Shown here: positions 29,175 to 44,056 of the stretch, one piece after another | Layout: each line of letters starts with the position of its first letter | Numbering within the stretch: position 1 is the first letter of the stretch | Assembly (NCBI GenBank): GCA_015665315.1 | Contig: JADFAK010000029.1 | Location: forward strand, 28,255-92,254 | DNA: 64,000 nucleotides | Source of the DNA: Flavobacteriales bacterium | GTDB lineage: Bacteria > Bacteroidota > Bacteroidia > Flavobacteriales_D > Sanyastnellaceae | Reading direction: 5' to 3' | The notes under the pieces: generated by a model | Told to the model about the DNA's origin: nothing | The model's input: the letters and a program-made list of their open reading frames with translations, nothing else | Database searches by the model: none | Translations under genes and position numbers: made by a program

Positions 29175-30551
29175 ATGACCAGACTTTTATTCTCTCTTTC
29201 TCTTGCGTGTGTTCTTGCCCTATTCTCGTGCGGAGGCTCATCGGCCTTGACTAAAAAAGCTGTGCAGCTTGAAAACGCAGGATTAGTCACGGAGGCTGCT
29301 CAATTCTACTATGACGCGCTGACTAAAAAACGCACCAACATTGACGCGCAAATTGGATTGAAAAAGACAGGCCAAATTTTACTATCTCAGAAATTGAGTG
29401 CCTTTTCCCAAGCCGCGGCTTTTGACTCGCAAAGAGAAGCTGTTTACAAATACTTAGAAGCAGAAGACTACCAAAAAAAAGTCGCTAAAGTGGGCGTAAA
29501 CCTGGAAATACCCGCCATGTACAGGTCTGATTTCGAGGTAGCCAAAGAAAAATATTTGGGTGAATTGTACGAACAGGGGACCGAATTATTAGATCAGCAA
29601 CAATTTTCGGAAGCAGAGAATGTTTTTAGCGAATTATCCCGACTTGATCCAAGTTTTAAAGATGCCTCCAATTTGCAGAGTATTGCTTTCGTGGAGCCCA
29701 AATACAAAGCGGGAAAAAAAGCAATGGCCAATGGTCACTACAGAACGGCCATGAATCGATTCACTGAAGTTCAAAAAAAGATGCCTCATTATAAGGACAC
29801 GGATGAAGAACTTAAAAATGCTCTTGCGCTGGGGCAATATAGTCTTGCCTTACTCCGATTCGAAAATGCCTCCGATAAAATAGGTTTGTCGGCCTTGGCA
29901 GAAGCTTATGTGCTTGAGGCTCTTTCGGACATCAACGATCCTTTTCTTCGCATAGTAGATCGAGACAATTTGCAAGTTATAATGGATGAACAGACCCTGG
30001 GTATGACGGGGGTTATTGACGAAGAAACAGCTGTGAATGCCGGAGAGATAATTGGGGCTCAAGCAATTGTCACAGGGACAGTTTTATCGTATTCATCTTC
30101 GCTTGGAAGGGTTGTTACCAAGAAAAAGAAAGGATTCGAACATTCTCAAGTAAAACAGTACTCCAAGGCCGATGAAACCCCTAAGTATGTTGACAGGTAC
30201 AAAGAGGTCGAATATGTTGAGACAAGCGCTACAAACAAAGCAAGTTTTTCATTTCAATTCAAAGTCATTTCGCTTAAAACGGGAGAAGTCCTACTCACGA
30301 ATCTCATCAACAAAGAGCTGAGTGACCAAATGGCCTATGTGAATTATGAAGGCGAGCTAAAGTCCCTCTACCCTGCTGGCTCCAATGGTGCAGTGAACAC
30401 AAAAAGATCAAGCCAAATGGCACTTCATCAACTGGCTAATGCTCCGCGTGAGTGCAAAACTCCTGAGCAATTGACAAATGAAATAATCCTGGCTTCCTCT
30501 TTGGAAATGAAATCGGCGATAAGCAAGTTACTCAAGCAGGAAGTTAAATGA
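29175..30551 (+). CDS. CsgG-like lipoprotein with TPR-like N-terminal half
   Basis: 458 residues with a lipobox (LFSC, Cys19). The first 200 mature residues are helical repeats (QLENAGLVTEAAQFYYDALT, FSEAENVFSELSRLDPSFKDASN) of TPR character; the second half carries the CsgG/HfaB-type core (VDRDNLQVIMDEQTLGMTGVIDEETAVNAGEIIGAQAIVTGTVLSY, about 257-302). CsgG proteins form outer-membrane or envelope-attached oligomers. First of three lipoprotein genes; overlaps the next by 4 bases. Confidence 0.82.
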   Translation: MTRLLFSLSLACVLALFSCGGSSALTKKAVQLENAGLVTEAAQFYYDALTKKRTNIDAQIGLKKTGQILLSQKLSAFSQAAAFDSQREAVYKYLEAEDYQKKVAKVGVNLEIPAMYRSDFEVAKEKYLGELYEQGTELLDQQQFSEAENVFSELSRLDPSFKDASNLQSIAFVEPKYKAGKKAMANGHYRTAMNRFTEVQKKMPHYKDTDEELKNALALGQYSLALLRFENASDKIGLSALAEAYVLEALSDINDPFLRIVDRDNLQVIMDEQTLGMTGVIDEETAVNAGEIIGAQAIVTGTVLSYSSSLGRVVTKKKKGFEHSQVKQYSKADETPKYVDRYKEVEYVETSATNKASFSFQFKVISLKTGEVLLTNLINKELSDQMAYVNYEGELKSLYPAGSNGAVNTKRSSQMALHQLANAPRECKTPEQLTNEIILASSLEMKSAISKLLKQEVK

Positions 30552-31933
30552 TGGTTCGCACGCTGACATATATATTCCTTGTAATTCTAGTTTGCGGATG
30601 TGGCAATAAAAAGGGCACCCAAGAAACGGTTGAGCAACCTGATGTACAACCCCATTGGATGACTGATCGGCCTATTCAAAGCGGTTATTACATCGGAGTA
30701 GGCAGCGCTTCAAAAAATGAGCATCCTCTTGATTTTTCACAAGTTGCCAAAGAAAATGCCCTCTTAGATTTGGCGTCTGAGATTCGGGTGACCATTTCTG
30801 GCGAGTCGTTTCTAAGCACCCTTGAGGTGAACGATTATTTTCAGGAAGAATTCATCTCCAAAATTTCCACCTCAACAAAAGAATATCTGGAGGGTTATGA
30901 TCTTGTGGACACCTGGGAGGACAATCAACAATACTGGACTTTTTATCGACTGTCTGTCGCCGAATACAACCGAATTCGAGCAGAGCGCAAGCAAAGTGCG
31001 ATGAAACGATCGGCCGACAACTTAAGGCGAGCAAAGAGTTTTGAACTGGAAGGGGATGTACGCGGAGCGATTTCAAACTACTTAGATGGTTTGGTTGGGA
31101 TTCATGAATATTGGACAGAAAGCAATGAGTTTGACCTAAACGGACAGACGATTTTCTTGGATCATGAATTACATCATGGTTTCAAAGACCTGCTGCGAGA
31201 TATTCAAATTGAACCTAATCCAACAGAGATTGTACTGAACCAAATGAATCGTTACAGAGAAGATGTAAAAGTCTTGGTTCACTTGCGTGGCAACCCAGTG
31301 CGGGATTTCCCTTTGAAATATCGTGTAACATTTGATGGCGGATACAATCGATTTCTCGCCATTCGCACCAACGACAATGGAATAGCCACAATTCGTATTG
31401 AAAATGTGTCCCTAGAAGGAGGAAGTACAACCAGACTAGAAATAGAATCGGGCATGGATAAGATGGATTTTGAGGGGATAGAAATGCAGGTGCGAAAACC
31501 ATTGATGGATGAAATCGGCTTTAGTTCTCGTCAGCTTCCCTTGCGCATCATTTTGCCATCGATGTCGATCGAAAGCCAGGAATTAAATTTAGGCACTACA
31601 CTAAGTAGCCCCTTGCTTTCGGCAACCTTGCGCTCTGAATTAGCGTCACTCGGAATTCGGTTCGTTGCCTCCTCGGCACAGGCCGACTATGTTGTGAAGG
31701 TGCATGCCGACTCACGAGAATCAGGCACCTCGCAGGGATTTCACGTGGCTCACTTGGACGCGCGTGTCGAAGTGCTAGACAGGATAACGGGCGAGCTGGT
31801 TTATTCATGGCAAGAAAACAGCATCAAAGGACTGCAGCTCAATTTTGAATCTGCCGGAAAAGAAGCGTATAAAAAAGCGGCAAAAAAAATGGAACAAATA
31901 GTTGGAACAGAAATCATAGACGCTATTCTTTAG
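30548..31933 (+). CDS. LPP20 family lipoprotein
   Basis: 461 residues with a lipobox (LVCGC). Residues 37-150 are an LPP20-type domain (PHWMTDRPIQSGYYIGVGSASK, then ENALLDLASEIRVTISGES), the fold seen in Helicobacter Lpp20 and Vibrio FlgP. The rest contains an arginine-rich helix (RRAKSFELEGDVRGAISNYLDGL) and a beta-rich C-terminal domain. Lies between a CsgG-like and a second LPP20-like lipoprotein, which suggests one envelope complex. Confidence 0.82.
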   Translation: MMVRTLTYIFLVILVCGCGNKKGTQETVEQPDVQPHWMTDRPIQSGYYIGVGSASKNEHPLDFSQVAKENALLDLASEIRVTISGESFLSTLEVNDYFQEEFISKISTSTKEYLEGYDLVDTWEDNQQYWTFYRLSVAEYNRIRAERKQSAMKRSADNLRRAKSFELEGDVRGAISNYLDGLVGIHEYWTESNEFDLNGQTIFLDHELHHGFKDLLRDIQIEPNPTEIVLNQMNRYREDVKVLVHLRGNPVRDFPLKYRVTFDGGYNRFLAIRTNDNGIATIRIENVSLEGGSTTRLEIESGMDKMDFEGIEMQVRKPLMDEIGFSSRQLPLRIILPSMSIESQELNLGTTLSSPLLSATLRSELASLGIRFVASSAQADYVVKVHADSRESGTSQGFHVAHLDARVEVLDRITGELVYSWQENSIKGLQLNFESAGKEAYKKAAKKMEQIVGTEIIDAIL

Positions 31934-31992
31934 CTCTGGCATAGTTTGTGCATCCAACGAGAATCAACATAAAAACGTCTAATTCAACTGAT

Positions 31993-32577
31993 ATGAAAAA
32001 CATTACCACTTTTAGAAATCTAGCCCTTATTGGTTTGGCTTTGCTTACAATAACTGCCATTGGGTGTAAGAAGAAAAAGCAGATCGTAGAGGAAAAGCCG
32101 AAAGGAGAAGTATTGATCAATGAGTATTGTTCATCTGAAAACTTCTTTTCTGACAAAAAGACTTTTCGCGCAACAGCTACTGGAGAAAGCATGGATCGAG
32201 AAACGGCCAAGAAAAAGGCTCGTTCTAATGCCAATGCTGAGTTGGCAAAAACAATCCGTACAACCATGCAGATTGTGGGAGACAACTATGTTAATTCAAC
32301 TGAATTCAACAACAAAGAAGAAGTTACTGAGACTTTCAACGAGATGGCCAGAACCATCATCGACGAAACGTTGACTGGGGCGATAAAAATTTGCGACAAG
32401 CTTACCCAGAAGCCTGACGGAAATTACGTCTCGTATATAGCCATTGAATTATCCGGCGAGGACTTGGTAGCCGAATACCATGAAAGTTTAAGTAAAAATG
32501 AACGCATCATGGCCGAATACAATTATGAAAAGTTCAAGGAGACTTTTGAAGCTGAAATGGAAAAAATGGGCAACTAA
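31993..32577 (+). CDS. Second LPP20-like lipoprotein
   Basis: The start at 31993 (MKNITTFRNLALIGLALL) gives a signal sequence with lipobox AIGC (Cys25); the longer frame from 31948 adds a poor N-terminus. 194 residues with the same core as the preceding protein: FRATATGESMDRETAKKKARSNANAELAKTI and a helix-rich end. 59 bases after the previous stop; followed by a terminator. Confidence 0.82.
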   Translation: MKNITTFRNLALIGLALLTITAIGCKKKKQIVEEKPKGEVLINEYCSSENFFSDKKTFRATATGESMDRETAKKKARSNANAELAKTIRTTMQIVGDNYVNSTEFNNKEEVTETFNEMARTIIDETLTGAIKICDKLTQKPDGNYVSYIAIELSGEDLVAEYHESLSKNERIMAEYNYEKFKETFEAEMEKMGN

Positions 32578-32603
32578 ACATCCCCATTTCTTAAAATAAG
32601 TAG

Positions 32604-32638
32604 AAGGTTAAGTCGGAAGGCTTAACCTTTTTTATTTT
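32604..32638 (+). terminator. Intrinsic terminator of the CsgG/LPP20 operon
   Basis: AAGGTTAAG and CTTAACCTT form a perfect 9-bp stem with an 8-base loop, followed by TTTTATTTT. Confidence 0.9.
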
Positions 32639-32759
32639 CCAATAATTCTGGGAACAAGCGTCCAAAACTAATTAGACGAAGGTGTGAACTGCGTACAACA
32701 TCACCTCATTATTTGTACATTCGTAGCCGCAGACGATCTTGGATTAAGCACCTAGACCT

Positions 32760-35312
32760 ATGTTGAATTTACTCCGCATTAACATATTGCTGGTTGGGCT
32801 TGCTATGTCAGCCGCTATGGACGCCCAAATTTATGGCGACCCTATCGTCTATTGGGATTTCGCGAATGGATTACCAAACACTTGGGTAAACGATAGCGAG
32901 TCACAAATTGGCAACTGGGAATACCGGGGGCCATCGACCTCGCCCAACAATACAGTATGTTCGCAGGGCTCATGTGGGACTGGATCGGTCCCAATTGCTT
33001 CTCAAAGTTTAACGAACGGATTTGTGATTTTCGACTCCAATTATTGGGATGACAACGTCGGTCCGTGTGGCAGTATAGGTTCTGGCCAAGATCCAGGGCC
33101 TCATGAAGCATGGCTTATCACCAACGCGGTTAATCTGACCGGTGTGAGCACGCCTACCCTTACTTTTCAGCAACAATACAAGCATTTCCAGTCTGCCCAA
33201 TACGACGTTTACACCTCCATTCTTATAAGCATCGATGGCGGAGAAAACTTCACGGTCATTCACGAGAACCCAGGTGACTACATGGTTTCCCCTCCTGCAG
33301 AATGGGTTACGATCCCTATTGGTTCCATTGCGGCTAATCAGCCTGACGTGCGGATCAAATTTCTATTTACGGGGTTATATTATTGGTGGTGTTTAGATGA
33401 TATCGCTATCTATCAACCGAATCAGGAAGACCTCCTCATCGCGAATGCCAAGTTTACCGAGTTCGACTACAATTTGGATCCTGCGGGATTCGGGGACATG
33501 GAATACAGTTCGTACGCATACACCATGCTGCCCGAATTCAACTTTTCGGGTCAGTGCATCAATATCGGTGCTACTGCTGCGAATGGCTCGCACTTTGAGG
33601 TTAGCGTGAATGATTCAGACGACAACGAAGTTCACTTTCAAACAACCAATCCCTTTAATTTAGTTACTGGGGGAAGTATATTGTACGAAGCACCCAGTTC
33701 ATACGTCCCCGACCTTCCGTTCGGCCATTATGAAATTGAGTTTCTCATGGATCAAACGGAAGTAGACGATGCTTACTGGAATAACTTCGCTTACAAAGAT
33801 TTCAATATCCATCCTTTTCAAATGGCACTTGATAAAGGAAACAATGGTGGTCAATTCGTCCCTCCTGTCTCGCTTCAAAACCAGACAATGGAGATTGGAA
33901 ATATTTTTGTCACTTGGGAATACGGTCATCAAATAAACTCTGTCAGCTTTTCAGTCGGTGACAGTTCCGACGTGGGAACGCCAGTATATGGTGTTGTGTA
34001 CAACCTTGAGCGGAGTGAGATATACGGGCAAACGGCGTCTTACGAGATTAACGTGACGGATGTAAACGGAAGTCCGCAAGACGCATGGGTCACCTTGCCC
34101 CTTCTGGAACCTATACCTACAACTGATACGTCCTTGTTCTTGATCATGATTGTCGACAGTTCGGATATTGGCAATTTCTATGTTAATCGCAGTGGTCAAG
34201 TTCCTGAATTTGCTTCGCAGGTTGCTTTTCCAGAATCGAATGGTTTATACTACCTCTTGGAGGCCGCTGCAGTTCGCATGAACCTATTTCCCGCTGGAGT
34301 CATTTCGGGATGTTTAGATTCCAATGCGATGAACTTCAATGCAAACGCTACGGCTGATGATCTTTCTTGTCTTTTCGCTGGCTGCACTGACCTAGAAGCA
34401 TCTAATTATGATAGCACCGCTACTTGGGACGACGGTAGCTGTGTCAATGCTGGATGTACCGATCCAGAGGCCGACAACTACGACCCGGATGCTGAGATTG
34501 AAGATGGAAGTTGCCAATACTTGGGCTGCACAGATGAAAATGCAAATAACTACGATTCGACGGCCAATACAGACAACGGATCATGTACCTACAGCCAAGC
34601 GTTCATGAGTGTAAATCAAATGATAGGTTGTGTTCCTTTGACGATAACGATCATGAACCAAACAGAATTGGGCGAAGAGTCGGAATGTACATTTGACCTA
34701 GGGGACGATACGATTATCACCACTTGCGAAACCAGTATTACCCACACTTACACTGAACCGGGAAATTACACGATCAACTACTCGCACACCATCGGTGAGT
34801 TTCAATCTGATTTTCAGATTTCGCCAATTGAAGTTTTTGCAAACCCGGATCCTCCAATGATCTCTTTCGATTCGGGCACCAACGAACTTAGTTGTGCCTG
34901 TCCAATTGATATCAGCTATACATGGTTCTTTAACGACATTCAACTCACGGATACATCGGCCCAGATTAATCCGAACAACAATGGCATCTATAGCCTGTTG
35001 ATTGTCGACGAACATGGATGCAGTGCAACTTCAAACGACCTACCGGTTGTCATTACGCATTTGGACGAAGTTCCAAACAATATTCATGCAACAATCGTTT
35101 ATCCAAACCCCGCAGAAGAGTGGTTTTTCATCGCAACTCCTCTGATCAACCCGATGGTGACGGTCTTTGACTTGTACGGACGAGTCATTCACACCGAGCA
35201 ATTATCTGGTGAATCGACCATGGTAAAGACAGACCAATGGGCCTCTGGAAGCTATATCGTGCGGATTTCGACTCAGGAAAAAACTGAATCGATACGATTG
35301 CTAGTTCATTAG
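32760..35312 (+). CDS. Large T9SS-exported multidomain surface protein
   Basis: 850 residues: signal peptide (1-22); an N-terminal MAM/jelly-roll-like domain (about 25-220); an unassigned beta-rich middle; four tandem cysteine-containing repeats of about 24 residues (GCTD..A.NYD..A..DDGSC, about 517-616); a PKD-like domain (CTFDLGDDTIITTCETSITHTY, about 640-690); and a T9SS type A sorting domain (about 775-850, VYPNPAEEWFFIATP to SIRLLVH). The repeat type also occurs once in the ASST-like protein at 15775. Probably an adhesin or matrix protein; no enzyme motif. Read alone. Confidence 0.85.
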   Translation: MLNLLRINILLVGLAMSAAMDAQIYGDPIVYWDFANGLPNTWVNDSESQIGNWEYRGPSTSPNNTVCSQGSCGTGSVPIASQSLTNGFVIFDSNYWDDNVGPCGSIGSGQDPGPHEAWLITNAVNLTGVSTPTLTFQQQYKHFQSAQYDVYTSILISIDGGENFTVIHENPGDYMVSPPAEWVTIPIGSIAANQPDVRIKFLFTGLYYWWCLDDIAIYQPNQEDLLIANAKFTEFDYNLDPAGFGDMEYSSYAYTMLPEFNFSGQCINIGATAANGSHFEVSVNDSDDNEVHFQTTNPFNLVTGGSILYEAPSSYVPDLPFGHYEIEFLMDQTEVDDAYWNNFAYKDFNIHPFQMALDKGNNGGQFVPPVSLQNQTMEIGNIFVTWEYGHQINSVSFSVGDSSDVGTPVYGVVYNLERSEIYGQTASYEINVTDVNGSPQDAWVTLPLLEPIPTTDTSLFLIMIVDSSDIGNFYVNRSGQVPEFASQVAFPESNGLYYLLEAAAVRMNLFPAGVISGCLDSNAMNFNANATADDLSCLFAGCTDLEASNYDSTATWDDGSCVNAGCTDPEADNYDPDAEIEDGSCQYLGCTDENANNYDSTANTDNGSCTYSQAFMSVNQMIGCVPLTITIMNQTELGEESECTFDLGDDTIITTCETSITHTYTEPGNYTINYSHTIGEFQSDFQISPIEVFANPDPPMISFDSGTNELSCACPIDISYTWFFNDIQLTDTSAQINPNNNGIYSLLIVDEHGCSATSNDLPVVITHLDEVPNNIHATIVYPNPAEEWFFIATPLINPMVTVFDLYGRVIHTEQLSGESTMVKTDQWASGSYIVRISTQEKTESIRLLVH

Positions 35313-35451: not shown

Positions 35452-36363
35452 ATGGTGAGAGTCACCTATCTATTTCTTCTTCTAACACTTGTTTTTGGAT
35501 CTTGTAAAAAGGACCCTGTCGTATTTGAAAATAACGACATTCCTCCTTATGACGAAATCCCTACGATTGTTGTCAATAATTATGTGAACCGACTCTTCAT
35601 TGACATCATTGGGCGAGAACCTCTTGACGCTGAAATGTCGGCCGAAGTATCTCTACTCGAGCAAAACGACCTCAACCAAGAGTCGCGTGAGCTTTTAGTT
35701 CAGAAATTGATGTACAGCGAGGAACCAGTCGACGGGGACATCAGCTACAATCACGCATGCTTCCACAAGATTTATGAAGACACCAAGGCGCGTTTTATCG
35801 AGGGTGCATCCGACGGCTATATCAACGAACAGTGGTTTATTTTTAGGTCGGCCGCTATCGCCGACTCTATCGCGGGGAATATGGTTGGGTATACCAAAAA
35901 CATGACAGACGCCAATAAATTGACGGCCATCATCGAGAGCAAAGAAGAACTTAGGAATCAAGAAATTGTGATGACCGAAATGTACCGTCGGATGATGTAC
36001 AACTGGTTATATGACGAAATAAACATGAATACTTTCAACTTCGTCAATGCTTCCTTCGATGATTTGTACTACCGTTACCCTACAGATGCAGAATTTGAAA
36101 ATGCTTACAACGTAATTGAATTCAATGAGCCCGCCCAGCTATTTGGGGAGATCGCGCAGACGAAATTAGAGTACTTGGAATTACTGCTTTCTACGGAAGA
36201 GTGTTACGAGGGCATGATTAGGTGGAGTTTCAAGAGTCTTTTAGCTAGGGAGCCTTCGGCAAATGAGGTTTTTGCGTTGTTGGGAAGTTTAATCCTAAGC
36301 GAGAATGTGCTGACTGTTCAAGAATCAATTTATCTTACCGATGAATATGCAGGTTTCGAGTAA
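35452..36363 (+). CDS. Lipoprotein with DUF1549-like N-terminal stretch
   Basis: 303 residues with a lipobox (FGSC, Cys18) followed by KKDP, the usual Bacteroidetes surface-lipoprotein start. VNRLFIDIIGREPLDAEMSAE (about 43-63) closely resembles the opening of DUF1549/PSCyt2 proteins of Planctomycetes, where a helical domain accompanies DUF1501 proteins; two later stretches (FDDLYYRYPTDAEFENAYNV, SLLAREPSANEVFALLGSL) repeat the same R-P/D-A-E pattern. So it may consist of three related helical units. First gene of the operon. Function unknown. Confidence 0.75.
   Translation: MVRVTYLFLLLTLVFGSCKKDPVVFENNDIPPYDEIPTIVVNNYVNRLFIDIIGREPLDAEMSAEVSLLEQNDLNQESRELLVQKLMYSEEPVDGDISYNHACFHKIYEDTKARFIEGASDGYINEQWFIFRSAAIADSIAGNMVGYTKNMTDANKLTAIIESKEELRNQEIVMTEMYRRMMYNWLYDEINMNTFNFVNASFDDLYYRYPTDAEFENAYNVIEFNEPAQLFGEIAQTKLEYLELLLSTEECYEGMIRWSFKSLLAREPSANEVFALLGSLILSENVLTVQESIYLTDEYAGFE
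36251..36265. repeat. Copy 3 of the 15-bp dispersed motif (inside a gene)
   Basis: AGCCTTCGGCAAATG, the reverse complement of the motif, encoding PSANE within the third helical unit of the preceding lipoprotein. Confidence 0.5.
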
Positions 36364-36838
36364 ATATATTGCATTGATATTCGTGGTGTTTTTGCTCGTT
36401 GGATGCAAAAAAGACCCCGAGCCCTCCTTCGTCTTAAACGATGTTGAGCTCTATCCGTCGAATGCGGGAAAGGACAAACTGAAAACGAACAATCAATATG
36501 TGGCTATTTTGCATGCCAATTTGTTCCAAACTGCCTTGTCGGCGAACGACATCTACGACCTGAACAATTGCATAGAATCCATAGGGGATAAAGAGCTTGC
36601 GCGTGAGGTGATTATTAGCAATTTCATGAACAAGGATGGTGTGCAACTTCCTACAGTGGAAGAAATGAATGCCGACATCAATGGATTCATTGAGGAAACC
36701 TATATCCGTTTTTTTGTAAGGTATCCCACTGAAGCTGAGAAGACTTACGTAAAGAATTTTATCGAATCGAATGCTTACATGACACCGGAGCTGGTCTATT
36801 TTTCGTTTGCTCTGGCCGATGAATATATGTTCTACTGA
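36347..36838 (+). CDS. Small lipoprotein related to the preceding one
   Basis: The start at 36347 (MQVSSKYIALIFVVFLLVGC) gives a clean lipobox (LVGC, Cys20 or so) followed by KKDPEP; an ATG two codons earlier is also possible. 163 residues. YIRFFVRYPTEAEKTYVKNFIES (about 112-134) is the same helical unit as in the upstream 303-residue lipoprotein (YRYPTDAEFENAYNVIE). Overlaps that gene by 17 bases and precedes the DUF1501 gene by 3. Function unknown. Confidence 0.75.
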   Translation: MQVSSKYIALIFVVFLLVGCKKDPEPSFVLNDVELYPSNAGKDKLKTNNQYVAILHANLFQTALSANDIYDLNNCIESIGDKELAREVIISNFMNKDGVQLPTVEEMNADINGFIEETYIRFFVRYPTEAEKTYVKNFIESNAYMTPELVYFSFALADEYMFY

Positions 36839-36841
36839 GCC

Positions 36842-38176
36842 ATGAAGAGAAGAGACTTTATTAAACGAGCTGGATTGACAGCGGCAGGCGGATTGATTTC
36901 TCCGTATATCTTGCCGAGCGGAAGGTTATTTGCTCCTACTGGAAATCAAATGGCGCCCCACGTTATTGTGGTGATGTATGCCGGTGGTGTTCGTCAGCAG
37001 GAAGCCGTAGGCATGCGTTATTTGGATGATTCTCAGGAAGACGATCCGTACGCAGGAAACATCATGTACAATTTATTGAACGGTGAAGCCCCGGAGCAGA
37101 AGATCGTATATGGGACAGGCCTCGGTGGCGTCAATCCTATTCCGCAGTTGCTCGATTCGACCTTGCAAACGCAGGGGACTTTATTCAAGGAGGTTCGTGC
37201 CTTATCGGCTGGACATTACGGCGGACTCAACAGCATGGTTCAAGGGAGCACGGTTACTACTCAAGGACTGCGACAGCGACCACTCAATCCAACCATTTTC
37301 GAATACCTACGCAGACATGGAGGTTATAGCGCGACAGACACCTGGTTTATAGGCAATGGCATTGGTAACTCAGTACCTCTATTGAACTACAGCGCCGATC
37401 CAAATTATGGAGCTCCATATGGTGCCAATTTCTTCGCTCCAACAATTACTTTCGATCAAGTTTGCCAGCAATTTATGGGCGACTCTAAAGTCTACCACCC
37501 AGAGAATGAGTTATCGCCCATGTACCAACTGAAGTATTTTCTGGACAATAGTTTCAACAACTATGGAGGAAATTTATTGTCATTGGGCAACACGGAGGAT
37601 GAGAAGCAAAACATCAAGGACTTTATAGATGAAATGTACGCCAAAACGGTAGCCAACACCATCGCAGCGCCTCCTGTTCAGGACAATGGCGATGCGCGTG
37701 TCATTGGCTATGCGTGCGAGGTTTTAAAGTGGTTCAAGCCTGCATGCTTGTTTGTCAACTTAAACGGAGTCGATAATTGCCACTCCAATTTCACACGTTA
37801 TTTGGGAGCTCTGCACCGCGCCGATCACTCGGTAGGACATTTGTGGAATTACATACAGAACGAAATCCCGGAGATGGCTGACAATACGATCATCATCTGC
37901 ACACCTGAATGTGGTAGAAACGACAATCCCAATGCCATTGTCGATGAAAATAATTGGAAAGCATACGACCACTCTGATGCAAATGCACAACGGGTTTGGA
38001 CCATGATGGCCGGACCAAATGTACCCTCAAACCTGATTATTGGTGACGAAGGAAACCAAATAGGCCAAGTGACTGACACAATGCTCACTGTTGCCGACAT
38101 TCTGGGAGTTAAGAACGAGGTTCAAGCGGCCGGAAACCTGGCACCTGGAACCAATTCACTTTTTGACCTCATTTAA
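36842..38176 (+). CDS. DUF1501 family protein with Tat signal
   Basis: 444 residues. RRDFIKRAGLTAAGGLISPYI (3-23) is a twin-arginine signal. The body is DUF1501, an alkaline-phosphatase/sulfatase-like fold: HVIVVMYAGGVRQQE near 40-54, KPACLFVNLNGVDNCHSN near 300, and the C-terminal IICTPECGRNDN...YDHSDANAQRVWTMMAG, which corresponds to the EFGR...DH block of the family. DUF1501 enzymes are predicted hydrolases without proven substrate. It sits between DUF1549-like lipoproteins and a cytochrome-like lipoprotein, the partners it has in Planctomycetes. Confidence 0.88.
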   Translation: MKRRDFIKRAGLTAAGGLISPYILPSGRLFAPTGNQMAPHVIVVMYAGGVRQQEAVGMRYLDDSQEDDPYAGNIMYNLLNGEAPEQKIVYGTGLGGVNPIPQLLDSTLQTQGTLFKEVRALSAGHYGGLNSMVQGSTVTTQGLRQRPLNPTIFEYLRRHGGYSATDTWFIGNGIGNSVPLLNYSADPNYGAPYGANFFAPTITFDQVCQQFMGDSKVYHPENELSPMYQLKYFLDNSFNNYGGNLLSLGNTEDEKQNIKDFIDEMYAKTVANTIAAPPVQDNGDARVIGYACEVLKWFKPACLFVNLNGVDNCHSNFTRYLGALHRADHSVGHLWNYIQNEIPEMADNTIIICTPECGRNDNPNAIVDENNWKAYDHSDANAQRVWTMMAGPNVPSNLIIGDEGNQIGQVTDTMLTVADILGVKNEVQAAGNLAPGTNSLFDLI

Positions 38177-38179
38177 GAC

Positions 38180-39133
38180 ATGCTGAAACGAATCGTCGTC
38201 ATATCGTGTATTATTGCGCTGGTTGTCTCCTGCAAAAAGGATGATCCGGTGAACCCATACGATGATATCGTGCGCGTTCAAAACGACAATCCTGAGGCCG
38301 ATGACCTGCCTGTAGGTAACTTTGCTTGGCTGCAGGCAAAAGTATTTGGTCCGACATGCGCCAATAGTGGATGCCATGATGGCACATTCGAGCCAGCCTT
38401 CAGTTCAATCAATTCATCTTATAACACATTGGTCAACCATCCGGTGATCACCAATGACGACAACGGTACCTTCACCTATAGAGTTGTTCCCGGTGACGCT
38501 TCGAATTCTCTGTTGCACGAAAGATTAACGGTATTCATTCCGAACACTTCCGGGATAATGCCATTGGAGTACGAACCAGCTAGCGATTGGCCCGACAATG
38601 AAGCCTTCTATATCAATCAAATTGCTTCTTGGATCAATGCCGGCGCTAAAGATATGTTTGGGCATTCACCTGGGTCTGGCAATGCCGATTTTCCGCCTTC
38701 AGCTGAAGGATTGGTTGTTTTTCCAAGTGGAAATACGACTACACCTTACCCGCGTGATGAGGATGGTATTGGAATAACTCCAATTCTTGTAGATGCCGCA
38801 CCTATTGACATTTGGATTCTTGCAACTGACGACAATACAGCAGTTCAAGACTTCACAACGGCGCACATTAAATTGGCATCGGATATAAATGACTTCCCCA
38901 CCGAAAGCGCTATTGATCTCGTGTATTCAAGTCCGCTAACGGCGCTAGACTTTACAGATCAAGATGCTCAATTTTATTACAAAGCAACGGTAGATCTTAC
39001 AGGTGTTCCCAGCGGACAACAATATTTCTTGCGTGTTTACTTGAATGATGGAGTACAAAGTGAGGTGACCGAGATTCCCAATGATGGTTCAAGCAACGTC
39101 ATAAATGCCCTATTCTTACTGAGCGTCCAATGA
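38180..39133 (+). CDS. Cytochrome-c-like lipoprotein
   Basis: 317 residues with a lipobox (VVSC, Cys16) and KKDDP. FGPTCANSGCHDGTFEP (about 54-70) holds a CxxxxCH heme-type motif, one residue longer than the usual CxxCH but seen in Planctomycete-type (PSCyt1) and Bacteroidetes lipoproteins; further on, NPTSGIMPLEYEP-like text (PNTSGIMPLEYEPASDWPDNE) gives a methionine that could be the second heme ligand, and IASWINAGAKD is the closing helix. The C-terminal 150 residues are a beta domain. Heme binding is inferred, not certain. Confidence 0.7.
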   Translation: MLKRIVVISCIIALVVSCKKDDPVNPYDDIVRVQNDNPEADDLPVGNFAWLQAKVFGPTCANSGCHDGTFEPAFSSINSSYNTLVNHPVITNDDNGTFTYRVVPGDASNSLLHERLTVFIPNTSGIMPLEYEPASDWPDNEAFYINQIASWINAGAKDMFGHSPGSGNADFPPSAEGLVVFPSGNTTTPYPRDEDGIGITPILVDAAPIDIWILATDDNTAVQDFTTAHIKLASDINDFPTESAIDLVYSSPLTALDFTDQDAQFYYKATVDLTGVPSGQQYFLRVYLNDGVQSEVTEIPNDGSSNVINALFLLSVQ

Positions 39134-39579
39134 TTAGAAAGATCACATACCTCGCCCTAATTCTATGCCTCACTCATACGGGATGCAAAAAGGATGAAGA
39201 AGAAATATCTGACATTCCCGCAATTGCATTTACCAGTTTGTCGGATGACTCAGTCGTGCAATTTGAGAACAATGTTTCTATCAAATTCACCTACATCGAT
39301 GGAAATGGGGATATTGGCCATGTCGATCCAGACGAGTACGCTTTGAGAGTTAAGGATAGTCGCCTTGCAGACTTCGACTGGTACCATATTCCGCCTGTCA
39401 CTCCGAATAATGAAGAGCTTAACGTAAGCGGTTCTTTAACGGTTGAATTATCCTCGTTGTTCTTGTTGGGGAACGGCGGACAGGAATCGGCTTCATTTAC
39501 GGTGCAGCTCCAAGACCGAGCAGGAAATTGGAGCAATCAAATTATCACGCCTGTTGTACTGATTAACGACAGTCTGTGA
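39130..39579 (+). CDS. Small surface lipoprotein of unknown function
   Basis: 149 residues with a lipobox (HTGC, about Cys18) followed by KKDEEE. The mature part is one immunoglobulin-like beta-sandwich: IKFTYIDGNGDIGHVDPDEYAL and SFTVQLQDRAGNWSNQIITPVV, a layout common in Bacteroidetes surface lipoproteins. Overlaps both neighbours by 4 bases, so it is translated with the cytochrome-like and giant proteins. Confidence 0.78.
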   Translation: MIRKITYLALILCLTHTGCKKDEEEISDIPAIAFTSLSDDSVVQFENNVSIKFTYIDGNGDIGHVDPDEYALRVKDSRLADFDWYHIPPVTPNNEELNVSGSLTVELSSLFLLGNGGQESASFTVQLQDRAGNWSNQIITPVVLINDSL

Positions 39580-42500
39580 TGAACCGATTGCTAATATTGA
39601 CCGCACTAATTCTCTGGACGTGGACAGCATTCGGACAAGGAGACCTCCCAGAGTATAACATGTCCGATACAACCCTCACTGAATGTGATGGAATACTCTT
39701 TGACTCGGGTGGAGCAGATGACATTTATTCGAATAACGAATTTTACACGCTTACGATCACCACCAATGCACCTATCGAACTGACATTCCTGACGGAGTTT
39801 TGTGTCGAGACCAACTTCGATGAGCTTCTCATTTTCGATGGACCAGATGACACTTTTCCTCTCATCGCCACTCTGAGCGCTCTAAATGCTGGTCTGCCAG
39901 GCCCATTCATGACCAACAGTGGTTCGGTCACTCTTGTTTTCATGAGTGATAACAATGCCGCTTATTGTGGCTGGGAAATGCAGTGGTCAACTTTAGCACC
40001 GCCACCGCCAGTTCCCGTAATTCAGGCCGATCCGCTTCCAATCTGTGAAACGAATCTTGTTCCAATGACCTTTTCATATCCACTTGGGTGTGACTGGATT
40101 TACACCGAAAATTTCGCATTCGAAAGTCCGCAAGGATTCACCGTTACAGACCTCCTCATTGACTGTGTTGACGACTCGACTGTTACAGCGCAATTGGTCT
40201 TGGATCAGACTATAGACTACAATTGCGAGTATTCGATAGTGGCGACTCTTGGCATCCCAGACATTTGCGATAGCATATGGACCTACATAGTCACCGAAAC
40301 TTTCATTTATGACCAATGCCCTATTCGAAGTGATGTTTTGAGCGACTTGGACTCCCTTTGCTCGGGTCAATGTACCCCCATCATTGCGACTGTAGAAGGT
40401 TGTTTCGATCACACTTTCACTTGGAACAATGGACTCCCAGATGGAGCAGGCCCTCACAATGTCTGTCCGCTTGAGACTACCACCTACGTCGTTAACATCA
40501 CCGAAATCCCCACCGGCAACACGAGTCAAGACAGCATTACAATCGAAGTCATAAGCCCCACGATTGACCTCAATGACACGTTAATGTGTCAATCTGCTGA
40601 AGCCTTTCAACTCACGGCTAGTCCTCCAGGGGGATCATGGTATGGCAATGGAGTTCAAGATGAATTCACAGGATGGTTCATTCCCGACAGTGCGATGGCC
40701 GGTGTCAATACAATTTATTACGTAGTCTCCGATTTTTGTGTAGATAGCGTTCACATTGACATTAACCCTATCCAAGCAGGTTCCGTTTTAGCCGCATGCC
40801 CGGGATCGGCACCTTTCCAGCTTGAAGCTATTCCTGCGGGTGGAACATGGACTGGATTAAACACCCAAGCTGATGGGATGTTTAGCCCTGATTCGGCCGG
40901 AGTTTATTATCCCGTGTACAACGTCAATGGATGCCAAGACTCGCTGACGATCAACGTTGATGACATTGTAGGTAATTTCGATCTTGATACGCTCTGTCAA
41001 TCCCTGTATCCCGACACAATTGAATTCAGTCCGCTTGGAGGAGTCTGGTACGGCAATGGCCTATTGGACACATTGCTAGGCGTATTCGACCCGAATGAAA
41101 TGCCTCCTGGAGCCCAGACTTTCTTGTATGTCGTGGAGGGATGTGATCAAGAATTCGACATAACTATACTTGAAATTCAGACGGGTAGCATCAATAAAAC
41201 GAGCTGTCCAGAACAAGCGCCGTTTCAAATCTTCGAAGAATTCTCCCCTCCTGGTGGCTATTGGCAAGGAGAAGGAATAATCGACACGATCACTGGTCTA
41301 TATGACCCCGGGCTTCTTCCCAATGACTACGGCAGTACTATCGTCTATTATGCTCCTAACGGTTGTACAGACACGACCTTCATGTGGAATATTCAGACAC
41401 ACATTCCTGTTGACACGGTTTACTTCTGCCAAAGCGACGAGACTTTTCCCCTCACCTACGATGAAATTGGGCGTCAACCGGGTGGTGGTGTTTGGACTGG
41501 AGCTGGCATCATCAATCCTGAAAACTCCTATTATATTTTTGAACCCAGCACAGTTGTGCCAGGTGAGTACTTGATGACCTACGATAAAAACACCTGTTCC
41601 GATACGGTTTTGTTCATTGTGTATCCTGATGAATTAATCGTCCAAGAAATCGCATTGTGTTCTACGGCCGAAGAGTTCGTTATTCAAGAAGGTTTACCTG
41701 CTGGGGATTATTGGGTTGGAGATGGAGTCTCAGATCCATGGGAAGGAACATTCGACCCTAGCCTATCAAATGGTGGAGAATATCAGATTTATTGGGTGAC
41801 TCCAGCGGGATGTGTTGACTCTGTGTCGGTTAATGTGGATGTTTATCAGCAAGCGACAATTGACTTGCTGGAGGATTTTTACTGTTATCAAGACACCTTG
41901 ATTCCTGTCACTTTTTCTCCTGAAAGTGCTGTACTTACTGGTAGCGTTGTCGATGGGAGTTTCAATCCGGCCGACTTGGGACAGGGCCTTCACTCGATTT
42001 ATCTCAACTACACGGGTAATTTTTGCTCAAGCAGTGACACGGCAACCTTCTGGGTGTATCCTGAAATACTCACAACAATAAGTGCTACTCCAAATCCCAT
42101 TTGCAACGGCAATGGCTCAACAATTACAATAGAAGCTGGAGGCGGTCTACCGGATTCCTTGCTTACATATACCTGGAGTCATGACCTCTTCCCTATTTCG
42201 GAGAACAACGTGAGCCCATCCACCTCCACGACCTACTATGTCGAAATAAACGACGGTTGCAGTGACCCTTCGCTCGACTCCATACTTATAGAAGTTTTGC
42301 CGCCGATAGTTCCGATGGTCACGACAAGCGACACGGCCTGCTTTGGCGATCCGGGCTGGGCACAAGCGACGGCCAGTCCGCCGGCAGATTATTCATTCTT
42401 TTGGGACAACCTTCTTGCTGATGAAGACAATGGGGTGACTTCAACAGCTGGAAACTCGTTGGTACTAGAAATTGTTGACAATGAAAACGGATGTACACAC

Positions 42501-43064
42501 GACACCTTGGTTCTCATACCAAACTACACGCCAATAGCTGCAAATTTCTCAGTGAATCCCAACGCCCAATGTATCGCTTTCGACGCCCTCCCACTGACAT
42601 TCATTGATTTAAGTCAGCACGGTATTTCAGGAACCTGGGATTTTGGAAATGGTGATTCTGAGCCCTATGATTCAGGATCAAACCCTGTCATCACGTACGA
42701 CCAAGCAGGAAATTACGTCGTCACTTTGGAGATCGTCAACGAAGGAGACTGTCCGGATGCTGCTTCACTTGACGTGTGTATTCTACCGCCTACTCCTATT
42801 TTCATTCCCGATGTATTCTCTCCTAACGACGATGGAAACAACGACGTCCTCTACGTGCGCGGATCTGGGATAGATGGGATGAATTTTACCGTGTTTGACC
42901 GATGGGGGGAACAAGTTTTCACCAGTACTCATCCTGATTTTGGCTGGGACGGACGCTTTCGTGGCAAGCCCATGCCTTCGGGGGTGTATGTTTACTATTT
43001 GACGATCAGTTTAAACACGGGAGTTCGAGAAGTAATAAAAGGAGACGTGACCTTAGTGAGATGA
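39576..43064 (+). CDS. Giant surface protein with CUB, repeat and type B T9SS domains
   Basis: 1162 residues: signal peptide (1-20); a CUB-like domain (about 33-143, LTECDGILFDSGG to MQWSTL); a linker of Ig-like strands; six repeats of about 65-80 residues sharing GGxWxGxGhxDxxxGxFDP (about 345-770); two more Ig-like stretches; a PKD domain (about 1015-1075, GTWDFGNGDSEP); and a gliding-motility-associated (type B) T9SS domain (about 1078-1162, IPDVFSPNDDGNNDVLYV to GDVTLV). Type B proteins are exported by T9SS and often need a partner PorP/SprF, which is the next gene, overlapping by 4 bases. Confidence 0.9.
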   Translation: MMNRLLILTALILWTWTAFGQGDLPEYNMSDTTLTECDGILFDSGGADDIYSNNEFYTLTITTNAPIELTFLTEFCVETNFDELLIFDGPDDTFPLIATLSALNAGLPGPFMTNSGSVTLVFMSDNNAAYCGWEMQWSTLAPPPPVPVIQADPLPICETNLVPMTFSYPLGCDWIYTENFAFESPQGFTVTDLLIDCVDDSTVTAQLVLDQTIDYNCEYSIVATLGIPDICDSIWTYIVTETFIYDQCPIRSDVLSDLDSLCSGQCTPIIATVEGCFDHTFTWNNGLPDGAGPHNVCPLETTTYVVNITEIPTGNTSQDSITIEVISPTIDLNDTLMCQSAEAFQLTASPPGGSWYGNGVQDEFTGWFIPDSAMAGVNTIYYVVSDFCVDSVHIDINPIQAGSVLAACPGSAPFQLEAIPAGGTWTGLNTQADGMFSPDSAGVYYPVYNVNGCQDSLTINVDDIVGNFDLDTLCQSLYPDTIEFSPLGGVWYGNGLLDTLLGVFDPNEMPPGAQTFLYVVEGCDQEFDITILEIQTGSINKTSCPEQAPFQIFEEFSPPGGYWQGEGIIDTITGLYDPGLLPNDYGSTIVYYAPNGCTDTTFMWNIQTHIPVDTVYFCQSDETFPLTYDEIGRQPGGGVWTGAGIINPENSYYIFEPSTVVPGEYLMTYDKNTCSDTVLFIVYPDELIVQEIALCSTAEEFVIQEGLPAGDYWVGDGVSDPWEGTFDPSLSNGGEYQIYWVTPAGCVDSVSVNVDVYQQATIDLLEDFYCYQDTLIPVTFSPESAVLTGSVVDGSFNPADLGQGLHSIYLNYTGNFCSSSDTATFWVYPEILTTISATPNPICNGNGSTITIEAGGGLPDSLLTYTWSHDLFPISENNVSPSTSTTYYVEINDGCSDPSLDSILIEVLPPIVPMVTTSDTACFGDPGWAQATASPPADYSFFWDNLLADEDNGVTSTAGNSLVLEIVDNENGCTHDTLVLIPNYTPIAANFSVNPNAQCIAFDALPLTFIDLSQHGISGTWDFGNGDSEPYDSGSNPVITYDQAGNYVVTLEIVNEGDCPDAASLDVCILPPTPIFIPDVFSPNDDGNNDVLYVRGSGIDGMNFTVFDRWGEQVFTSTHPDFGWDGRFRGKPMPSGVYVYYLTISLNTGVREVIKGDVTLVR

Positions 43065-44056
43065 TGAGGTATCTATTCATATTGTTTTTGTTTGCGCCGC
43101 TGGCAAATGTTTGTCTAGGGCAAGATTACATTTTGAGTCAGCGAACCAACCTGGTCCAACTAGTGAACCCAGCAAAAGTAGGCGTGATGGAAACCGACTA
43201 CCGAAGCGGAATTGCTCATCGCAGTCAGTGGTCATCCATTAGCAAAGCTTTTGTGACTACAGCTGCGCATTTTGACATGCCCTTGCTCAAGAAAAAAACG
43301 GGAGGGCACTACTTGGGCGCCGGATTGTTGATCGTACGCGACAAAGCGGGAAAATCACAACTTGGTACTTTTGAACTAAAAGGTTCCTTGGCCGCACACC
43401 TTGAATTGAACGACTACAATAGACTGTCTACAGGCATACTACTTGGCTACTTCCAACGGAGTATTGACCTGACTGGTCTTGCTTGGGACAGTCAGTTTAA
43501 CGGAGTAGGTTACGACCCCAGCTTAAGTCATGGAGAAGACATTCAACGTAAGAGTAGCGGCTATTTCGACGCTGGACTTGGCATGGAATGGGCACATCGC
43601 AAAAAAACAAACTACAGCTTTTCCTATGCTTTGTATCATTACGGCCAGAACCAAAGTATGCTTGGATCGGTCGACAAATTATTCATCCGACAAGTATTTC
43701 AAGCCAGCTGGGACAAAAAGATAAAGGCAACCACTTGGGTAGTAGATCTCACGGCTCAAGTGCAAAGTGCCGCAATGGAAATAGCGATTGGGACACGTGC
43801 CAAATACAGACTAGGAATAGACTCAAGGTATACCGACAAGCTGACCTCCAGTGCTGTTATGGCCGGCGTGTATTATCGTTACAACGATGCAATAATTCCT
43901 ATGATTGGATATGAATACAAGCGACTCATAACAGCTTGGTTTAGCTACGATCTTAACATTTCTAAATTACGAGTTGCCACTTCCACCCAAGGCGCGTGGG
44001 AGATCCATATTCTACATACTGGATTTCTCGAAAAACGAAGGGTGAAATTAAAGTGA
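43061..44056 (+). CDS. PorP/SprF family outer-membrane protein
   Basis: 331 residues with a signal peptide (1-21) and the family start QDYILSQRTNLVQLVNPAKVG, which resembles SprF/PorP, the T9SS-associated beta-barrel that anchors or helps export the neighbouring type B protein (as SprF does for SprB). Strand pattern and the GIAHRSQWSSISKAF block support this. Last gene of the seven-gene operon; the opposite-strand small gene abuts its stop. Confidence 0.9.
   Translation: MMRYLFILFLFAPLANVCLGQDYILSQRTNLVQLVNPAKVGVMETDYRSGIAHRSQWSSISKAFVTTAAHFDMPLLKKKTGGHYLGAGLLIVRDKAGKSQLGTFELKGSLAAHLELNDYNRLSTGILLGYFQRSIDLTGLAWDSQFNGVGYDPSLSHGEDIQRKSSGYFDAGLGMEWAHRKKTNYSFSYALYHYGQNQSMLGSVDKLFIRQVFQASWDKKIKATTWVVDLTAQVQSAAMEIAIGTRAKYRLGIDSRYTDKLTSSAVMAGVYYRYNDAIIPMIGYEYKRLITAWFSYDLNISKLRVATSTQGAWEIHILHTGFLEKRRVKLK

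Follow-up and report, generated by a model that had tools for sequence, protein, structure and literature searches.

PSCyt/DUF1549-DUF1553 modules and their neighbour genes have been described in Planctomycetes and Verrucomicrobia, and the available parts of two reports suggest a redox or carbohydrate role for them (PMC5615132, PMC2754498). The former states, in the part available, that nothing is known of the function of PSCyt/DUF1549-type proteins (PMC5615132), and an excerpt of the latter gives 41 copies of two such domains in one genome of the Planctomycetes-Verrucomicrobia-Chlamydiae (PVC) group (PMC2754498). DUF1800-DUF1501 gene pairs are another described arrangement (PMC5122149, partial text). 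In the accessible text of two further papers, type B proteins of the type IX secretion system (T9SS) are linked to PorP-like anchors, with 9 of 12 type B genes adjoining an SprF-like gene and the three orphans using a common shuttle (PMC9143113, PMC12618676). Here we compare with these systems a gene cassette at 35452-44056 of a 64,000-nucleotide stretch of a Flavobacteriales genome (assembly GCA_015665315.1, contig JADFAK010000029.1); this whole stretch is called the window below.

The cassette contains seven genes, g1 to g7. We found that in many Flavobacteriales, mostly metagenome-derived, g1 to g5 adjoin one another and are usually followed by g6; the conserved unit is a five-gene core, g1-g5, usually with g6. 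The PSCyt/DUF1549-DUF1553 modules, as far as the available descriptions go, resemble it in setting cytochrome-named and helical domains beside a gene of unknown family. They differ in that the parts of the cassette are separate lipoproteins below those Pfam cut-offs (neither PF07635 in g4 nor PF07583 in g1 passed) and that a T9SS protein usually follows. The neighbour gene in those modules is presumably DUF1501. No description of this operon was found in the titles and abstracts of the literature searched.

Conservation and linkage of the cassette

A g3-profile scan of species genomes found 154 loci, and the best 80, all titled as metagenome-assembled genome (MAG) records, were analysed. Iterative per-gene profiles were built on the open reading frames (ORFs) of these 80 loci, and gene order was mapped with them. 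Neighbour counts take only loci with enough contig, which excluded 6 of the 80 for g1 and g2, 7 for g4, 9 for g5, 14 for g6 and 27 for g7. The results showed that g1 and g2 lay upstream of g3 in 73/74 loci, while g4 followed g3 in 73/73 and g5 in 71/71; the search for this gene order in relatives, which an earlier note on the window had proposed, found g1-g5 together and not scattered. Downstream, g6 was present in 62/66 loci and g7 in 36/53. Adjacency, counted as overlap or a gap of at most 20 bp between ORFs with maximal starts, held for g1-g2 in 64/76 loci, g2-g3 in 64/78, g3-g4 in 76/78, g4-g5 in 71/73, g5-g6 in 62/67 and g6-g7 in 36/38, and the median overlap of g5 and g6 was 1 base. Among the 26 wide loci (at least 9 kb on each side), g1, g2, g4, g5 and g6 were present in 26/26 and g7 in 15/26, compared with 0-7/26 for nine flanking genes of the window, indicating that the arrangement exceeds chance.

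As these loci were selected by g3, the linkage is conditional on g3, and g1 and g4 profiles run on the genomes of the order served as the independent test. The g1, g3 and g4 profiles were each run on 399 genomes of the order Flavobacteriales. The g3 profile matched 106 of them, of which 54 weak ones were dropped, and one weak g1 genome and six weak g4 genomes were likewise dropped before co-occurrence was counted. A strong match to g1, g3 or g4 was found in 54/399 genomes, and all three occurred together in 49; the phylogenetic profile of g4 tracked those of g1 and g3 across the 399 genomes. The five genomes with an incomplete trio were draft assemblies of 170-630 contigs whose match was cut short or lay at most 240 bp from a contig start, and we take contig breaks to be the probable cause. 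For 53 of the 55 g3 copies, g1 was located 474-619 bp upstream of g3, a count that retained the weak g1 genome.

Among the 52 genomes with a strong g3 match, 43 belong to the same family as the window and 9 to others. In a phylum-wide sample, 30/395 genomes matched g3, and the strong matches were two, the window's own genome and one of the same family. From the weak loci of this sample 12 ORFs were chosen and nine obtained; two were omitted as seemingly off-frame. Six of the seven scanned passed the cut-off of Phosphodiest, Sulfatase or Metalloenzyme, and the seventh matched two of these families below cut-off. Together with the family counts, these results indicate that the cassette occurs mainly in some families and seldom outside them. 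Records under the titles Sphingobacteriales, Chitinophagales or Saprospiraceae contain it too. Further MAG records (L005, L020, L050, L055 and others) have the cassette under the name Chryseobacterium gleum or Chitinophaga pinensis and are likely mislabelled bins. A g1 homologue (P0152) is labelled Leptospiraceae, Sanyastnella coralliicola encodes a homologue, and proteins of a second named species, Halocola ammonii, were also among those matched.

Divergent cassettes were found in addition to the standard ones. In three of them (L188, L189 and L190) the order g1-g2-g3-g4-g5 was kept, with a g3 41% identical to that of the window, and a fourth (L191) was interrupted by a contig end. Genomes G047 and G031 have a standard copy in addition to their divergent cassette, whereas G024 has a divergent cassette as its sole match. 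Nearby Pfam matches were TPR (L188), WG repeat, multihaem cytochrome and molybdopterin/Fe-S (L189), and SH3 (L190). The multihaem cytochrome and molybdopterin/Fe-S genes lie next to the divergent cassette (L189:9106-13822) and presumably resemble alternative complex III. The earlier note had read all seven genes as one unit. The operon-like joining of a DUF1501-related Tat (twin-arginine translocation) protein, a CX4CH lipoprotein and a type B protein is indeed conserved, but the seven genes do not form a strict unit. The note had named DUF1501 without PorP and the giant protein as the finding that would refute it, and this was observed, because g1-g5 occur without g6 or g7 in the three divergent cassettes, in 4/66 loci lacking g6 and in 17/53 lacking g7.

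Table 1. Genes of the cassette in the window (positions count from the first letter of the window)
Gene	Position	Strand	Length	Product	Place in cassette
g1	35452..36363	+	303 aa	Helical lipoprotein	Core
g2	36341..36838	+	165 aa	Shorter helical lipoprotein related to g1	Core
g3	36842..38176	+	444 aa	Tat-exported, DUF1501-related; predicted alkaline-phosphatase fold	Core
g4	38180..39133	+	317 aa	Lipoprotein with CX4CH and later Met-Pro (c-type-cytochrome-like); variable C-terminal part	Core
g5	39130..39579	+	149 aa	Small lipoprotein ("Ig-like" is the earlier note's label)	Core
g6	39576..43064	+	1162 aa	CUB-like start, cysteine-paired repeats, PKD, type B T9SS C-terminal domain; predicted rod	Usual partner
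g7	43061..44056	+	331 aa	PorP/SprF family outer-membrane protein	Optional partner

All seven ORFs of the cassette read in one direction, as had been noted, with 3-base gaps or overlaps of 4-23 bases; g1 and g2 overlap by 23 bases if the first ATG is taken as the start, and the earlier figure of 17 bases corresponds to the second. The host assembly has 219 contigs and 4.6 Mb and is 99% complete, and a plasmid megablast gave no match. Upstream on the same strand (29175-35312) lie CsgG, LPP20 and 209-aa genes and a gene for a T9SS type A protein, which matched choice-of-anchor J below cut-off. The first three genes were linked to the cassette in 4/26 loci and the type A gene in 7/26.

Proteins of the core and their partners

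The g3 protein matched the Tat signal family TIGR01409 at 17.5 bits (cut-off 16.7), in line with the twin-arginine signal that had been read there, and neither a C-terminal domain (CTD) nor a lipobox was seen in its sequence, which gives the earlier suggestion of a surface-anchored complex no backing for g3. The DUF1501 label held in a weaker form. None of 59 family members matched PF07394 at E<=0.1, so that the curated cut-off was not reached, and a PF07394 search of the window's own genome matched another locus and not g3, but hhalign aligned g3 with DUF1501 proteins at 94.6% (E 6.7e-8, 124 columns) over the C-terminal part only, with shared C-terminal motifs. The predicted fold and a long sequence-profile alignment placed g3 in the alkaline-phosphatase superfamily. 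As judged by these comparisons, g3 appears to be a remote relative of both DUF1501 and alkaline-phosphatase-superfamily enzymes. Against PDB sequences, the g3 profile found only three matches, all weak and unrelated.

Sites were mapped with a 7-sequence alignment of the superfamily (A9), because hhalign of g3 with a single PafA homologue of the own genome failed (1.6-3.7%); aligning DUF1501 with A9 directly also failed (0.8%). The position of the first metal-binding Asp is Gly48 and that of the nucleophile is His125 in 67/67 g3 members, and the metal-His position is mostly Cys; we take the catalytic roles of these positions to be those of the classical enzymes. Thus g3 resembles PafA, sulfatases and NPP in predicted fold and profile alignment and differs from them at these three positions, with neither a Ser, Thr or Cys nucleophile nor a first-strand metal Asp in any of the 67 members. 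The "hydrolase" of the earlier note is therefore doubtful. D311, C313, H314, R359, D376 and H377 are invariant in 67/67 members, and position 356 is acidic in all of them.

The earlier observation that g1 and g2 are related was confirmed by hhalign (94.7%, 6e-8). The model of g1 (residues about 87-287) matched phycobilisome-linker domains, so that g1 is predicted to have the PF00427 fold; it differs from the linkers in being a Flavobacteriales lipoprotein below the Pfam cut-off. Window g1 itself did not match PF00427 at E<=1 in Pfam, and 21/59 g1 relatives did so at E<=0.1 (best 2.2e-4); in a separate scan of ten relatives, the three matches listed were all below cut-off. Likewise, PF07583 (PSCyt) was absent from window g1 at E<=1 and was matched by 13/59 relatives at E<=0.1 (best 4.5e-5) and by one of the ten scanned separately, below cut-off. 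A PDB sequence search with the g1 profile gave seven weak matches, six of them phycobilisome proteins. For g2, 20/29 relatives matched DUF4214 at E<=0.1, and the window's own g2 did not at that threshold.

Lipoprotein-type N-termini were read from the sequences of g1, g2, g4 and g5, which agrees with the earlier reading of these four proteins. Acidic residues at +2 to +7 of the lipobox proteins among g1-g5 average 1.4-2.0, a value that is not decisive for location. In g4, C60, C65, H66, M127 and P128 were invariant in 28 aligned rows, and CX4CH lay within the first 140 residues in 70/73 g4 ORFs. Class I cytochromes that carry CX4CH have a similar spacing, and the motif and the invariant Met are the only features behind the "cytochrome-like" label. 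The g5 protein has conserved D/G/P positions and no family match in Pfam or NCBIfam, so the "Ig-like" label found no backing. Across window g1-g5, no DUF1501, cytochrome or helical family passed its cut-off in these two databases.

The g6 protein carries a type B CTD (TIGR04131, 54.5 bits, cut-off 35) and a PKD match over cut-off, but the CUB domain that had also been named stayed below its own. Because the g6 alignment was restricted to proteins of 1050-1260 aa (53 members), the length range was taken from 54 unfiltered copies after g5; the median was 1163 aa and the 10th-90th percentile about 1091-1225. A 1730-aa g6 occurs in one relative (L193:285-5477), far above the norm of about 1160 aa. 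Of the 34 cysteines of window g6, 26 were kept in 53/53 aligned members, the others being 29-60% identical to the window protein. They mostly form regularly spaced pairs from residue 338 onward, and these repeats may build a rod; there were no tandem repeats at the DNA level.

The PorP/SprF assignment of g7 was upheld (TIGR03519, 135.9 against a cut-off of 90.55; Pfam, 113.7 against 22.3). The own genome (4.6 Mb) has 53 type B CTD matches, 48 of them over cut-off, and 18 PorP/SprF genes. Since a type B CTD precedes 14 of these 18 by at most 400 bp, the g6-g7 pairing is routine, and g7 is an optional neighbour, not the dedicated T9SS adaptor proposed earlier. By alignment, judged by eye, the type B-like tail of g6 was retained in 15/15 inspected loci without g7. 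The pair carries both signatures in the usual order of the published type B and PorP/SprF pairs, as described in the accessible parts of those papers (PMC9143113, PMC12618676), and it differs in the narrow length range and invariant cysteines of g6, in the absence of g7 from 17/53 loci and in the five extra genes. Given that published pattern, g6 and g7 are an ordinary pair in mechanics, and loci without g7 need no special account.

Possible functions and alternative explanations

DUF1800-DUF1501 pairs, both those in the available text of PMC5122149 and one in the own genome (L169), share with the cassette a helical protein beside a Tat DUF1501 protein and differ in that g1 cannot be aligned with DUF1800. 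At L169:3587-7681 (own genome, C26) a DUF1800-like/DUF1501 pair is directly followed by a protein of about 240 aa, and the same was seen in L170, L173, L174, L176, L177 and L179. This protein had a T9SS type A tail over cut-off in the 3/3 loci scanned with Pfam (L169, L173 and L177); an F5/8 type C match was found in all three, over cut-off in L169 only. The DUF1800 label of the pair partner was Pfam-tested in L177 only. Among 19 DUF1800-DUF1501 stretches no CX4CH ORF was flagged, and L185 had two CXXCH ORFs. The trio parallels the cassette, with the same kinds of part, and is a second association of DUF1501 with T9SS.

We infer that the cassette is likely related to the uncharacterised PSCyt/DUF1549-DUF1501 modules, as a Bacteroidota version with split parts, and likely encodes an outer-membrane metalloprotein-redox complex, because its parts are combined on the same principle as in the PVC PSCyt/DUF1549/DUF1553 modules and the DUF1800-DUF1501 pairs. 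The reading that we tentatively favour, at somewhat below even confidence, is that 35452-43064 is the conserved g1-g5 cassette with its usual g6 and that the products probably assemble into a single outer-membrane complex, with g1 and g2 as the scaffold for g3 and g4. The g3 protein would fold and bind metal in the cytoplasm, cross via Tat, and dock onto g1 and g2 (perhaps also g5) on the periplasmic side of the outer membrane. There the two lipoproteins, with their predicted phycobilisome-linker-like fold, would hold the putative metalloprotein g3 together with the putative haem lipoprotein g4, which may exchange electrons with the metal centre of g3. This centre, remodelled so that His takes the nucleophile position and Cys lies beside or among the ligands, might use a non-classical or redox step to act on a substrate of the phosphate, sulfate or sugar type. 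In cassettes that include g6, its product would be carried by the T9SS to the surface, be anchored by g7 or another PorP-like shuttle, and serve as a capture rod of fixed length. This reading draws on the linkage and co-occurrence of the genes, the divergent cassettes that retain g1-g5, the predicted fold, DUF1501 relation and site pattern of g3, the linker fold predicted for g1, the Tat and CTD signals, the cysteine-rich g6 with its narrow length range and kept type B tail, and the parallel DUF1800-DUF1501 trio. A bolder form appears doubtful: an undescribed outer-membrane redox machine of Bacteroidota in which the linker-fold scaffold, an alkaline-phosphatase-fold enzyme with an invariant His for its nucleophile and the CX4CH haem lipoprotein would be coupled through the outer membrane to the T9SS-delivered, fixed-length disulfide rod.

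Several results weigh against the complex. L188, L189 and L190 have no g6 and no g7 within the 6-7 kb examined downstream, and g6 is missing from the 4/66 loci given above. Neither for window g4 nor among 28 members of g4 did a cytochrome family pass its cut-off, and PSCyt1 (PF07635) was absent at E<=1 in g4 of the own genome and was not among the families matched by the 28 members. Window g1 reached no Pfam cut-off, nor did the ten relatives scanned separately, and hhalign could not align it with DUF1800 (4%), for which reason it was not filed under that family. With no recognisable catalytic nucleophile or full metal set, g3 could be inactive. The outer membrane would also separate g3 from g6 at their predicted locations.

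The tight joining of g5 and g6, with one g6 family following in 62/66 loci at a median overlap of 1 base, would suit a rather doubtful alternative, in which g1-g5 form a periplasmic, PorE-like platform for biogenesis or anchoring of the g6 rod, the lipoproteins hold or modify g6 and PorP, and g3 is a structural pseudoenzyme. The remodelled g3 site is consistent with this, and a PorE-PorP-type B complex has been proposed for static type B proteins in the parts available of two papers (PMC9143113, PMC12618676). However, the core occurs without g6 in the three divergent cassettes and the 4/66 loci, and the genome has 48 over-cut-off type B CTDs but one g3, so other type B proteins manage without g3. 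It is unlikely that the system is catalytically dead and purely structural, the linker-fold lipoproteins and an alkaline-phosphatase-fold pseudoenzyme building a lattice at the surface or in the periplasm. The His and Gly that occupy the nucleophile and metal-Asp positions, respectively, in 67/67 members, the linker fold of g1 and the repeat-built g6 would fit such a lattice, but the seven conserved g3 positions, six invariant and one acidic, exceed the needs of a dead site, and g4 retains CX4CH and Met. Tat export of g3, moreover, suggests a cofactor.

We regard as quite unlikely that g1-g5 and an ordinary type B/PorP pair are two unrelated modules sharing only a promoter. The optional g7, the 14/18 PorP genes that follow a type B CTD and the lack of g6 in the divergent cassettes would all suit it, but g6 is one family placed after g5 in 62/66 loci, with 26 invariant cysteines at 29-60% identity, and the flanking genes are not linked. 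Readings as a chance operon or as a g6-g7 system only were also weighed and ranked lower.

Compared with the multidomain PVC proteins, the five-gene version with its separate parts offers easier expression and dissection, and such a compact version matters because PSCyt/DUF1549-type proteins are abundant in PVC bacteria. Since g3 aligns with both DUF1501 and the alkaline-phosphatase superfamily, it would tie DUF1501 to a mechanism class and single out residues for testing. That a T9SS protein usually accompanies the core suggests substrates at the cell surface. If the redox-machine reading is true, it would give the DUF1501/PSCyt class its first testable function.

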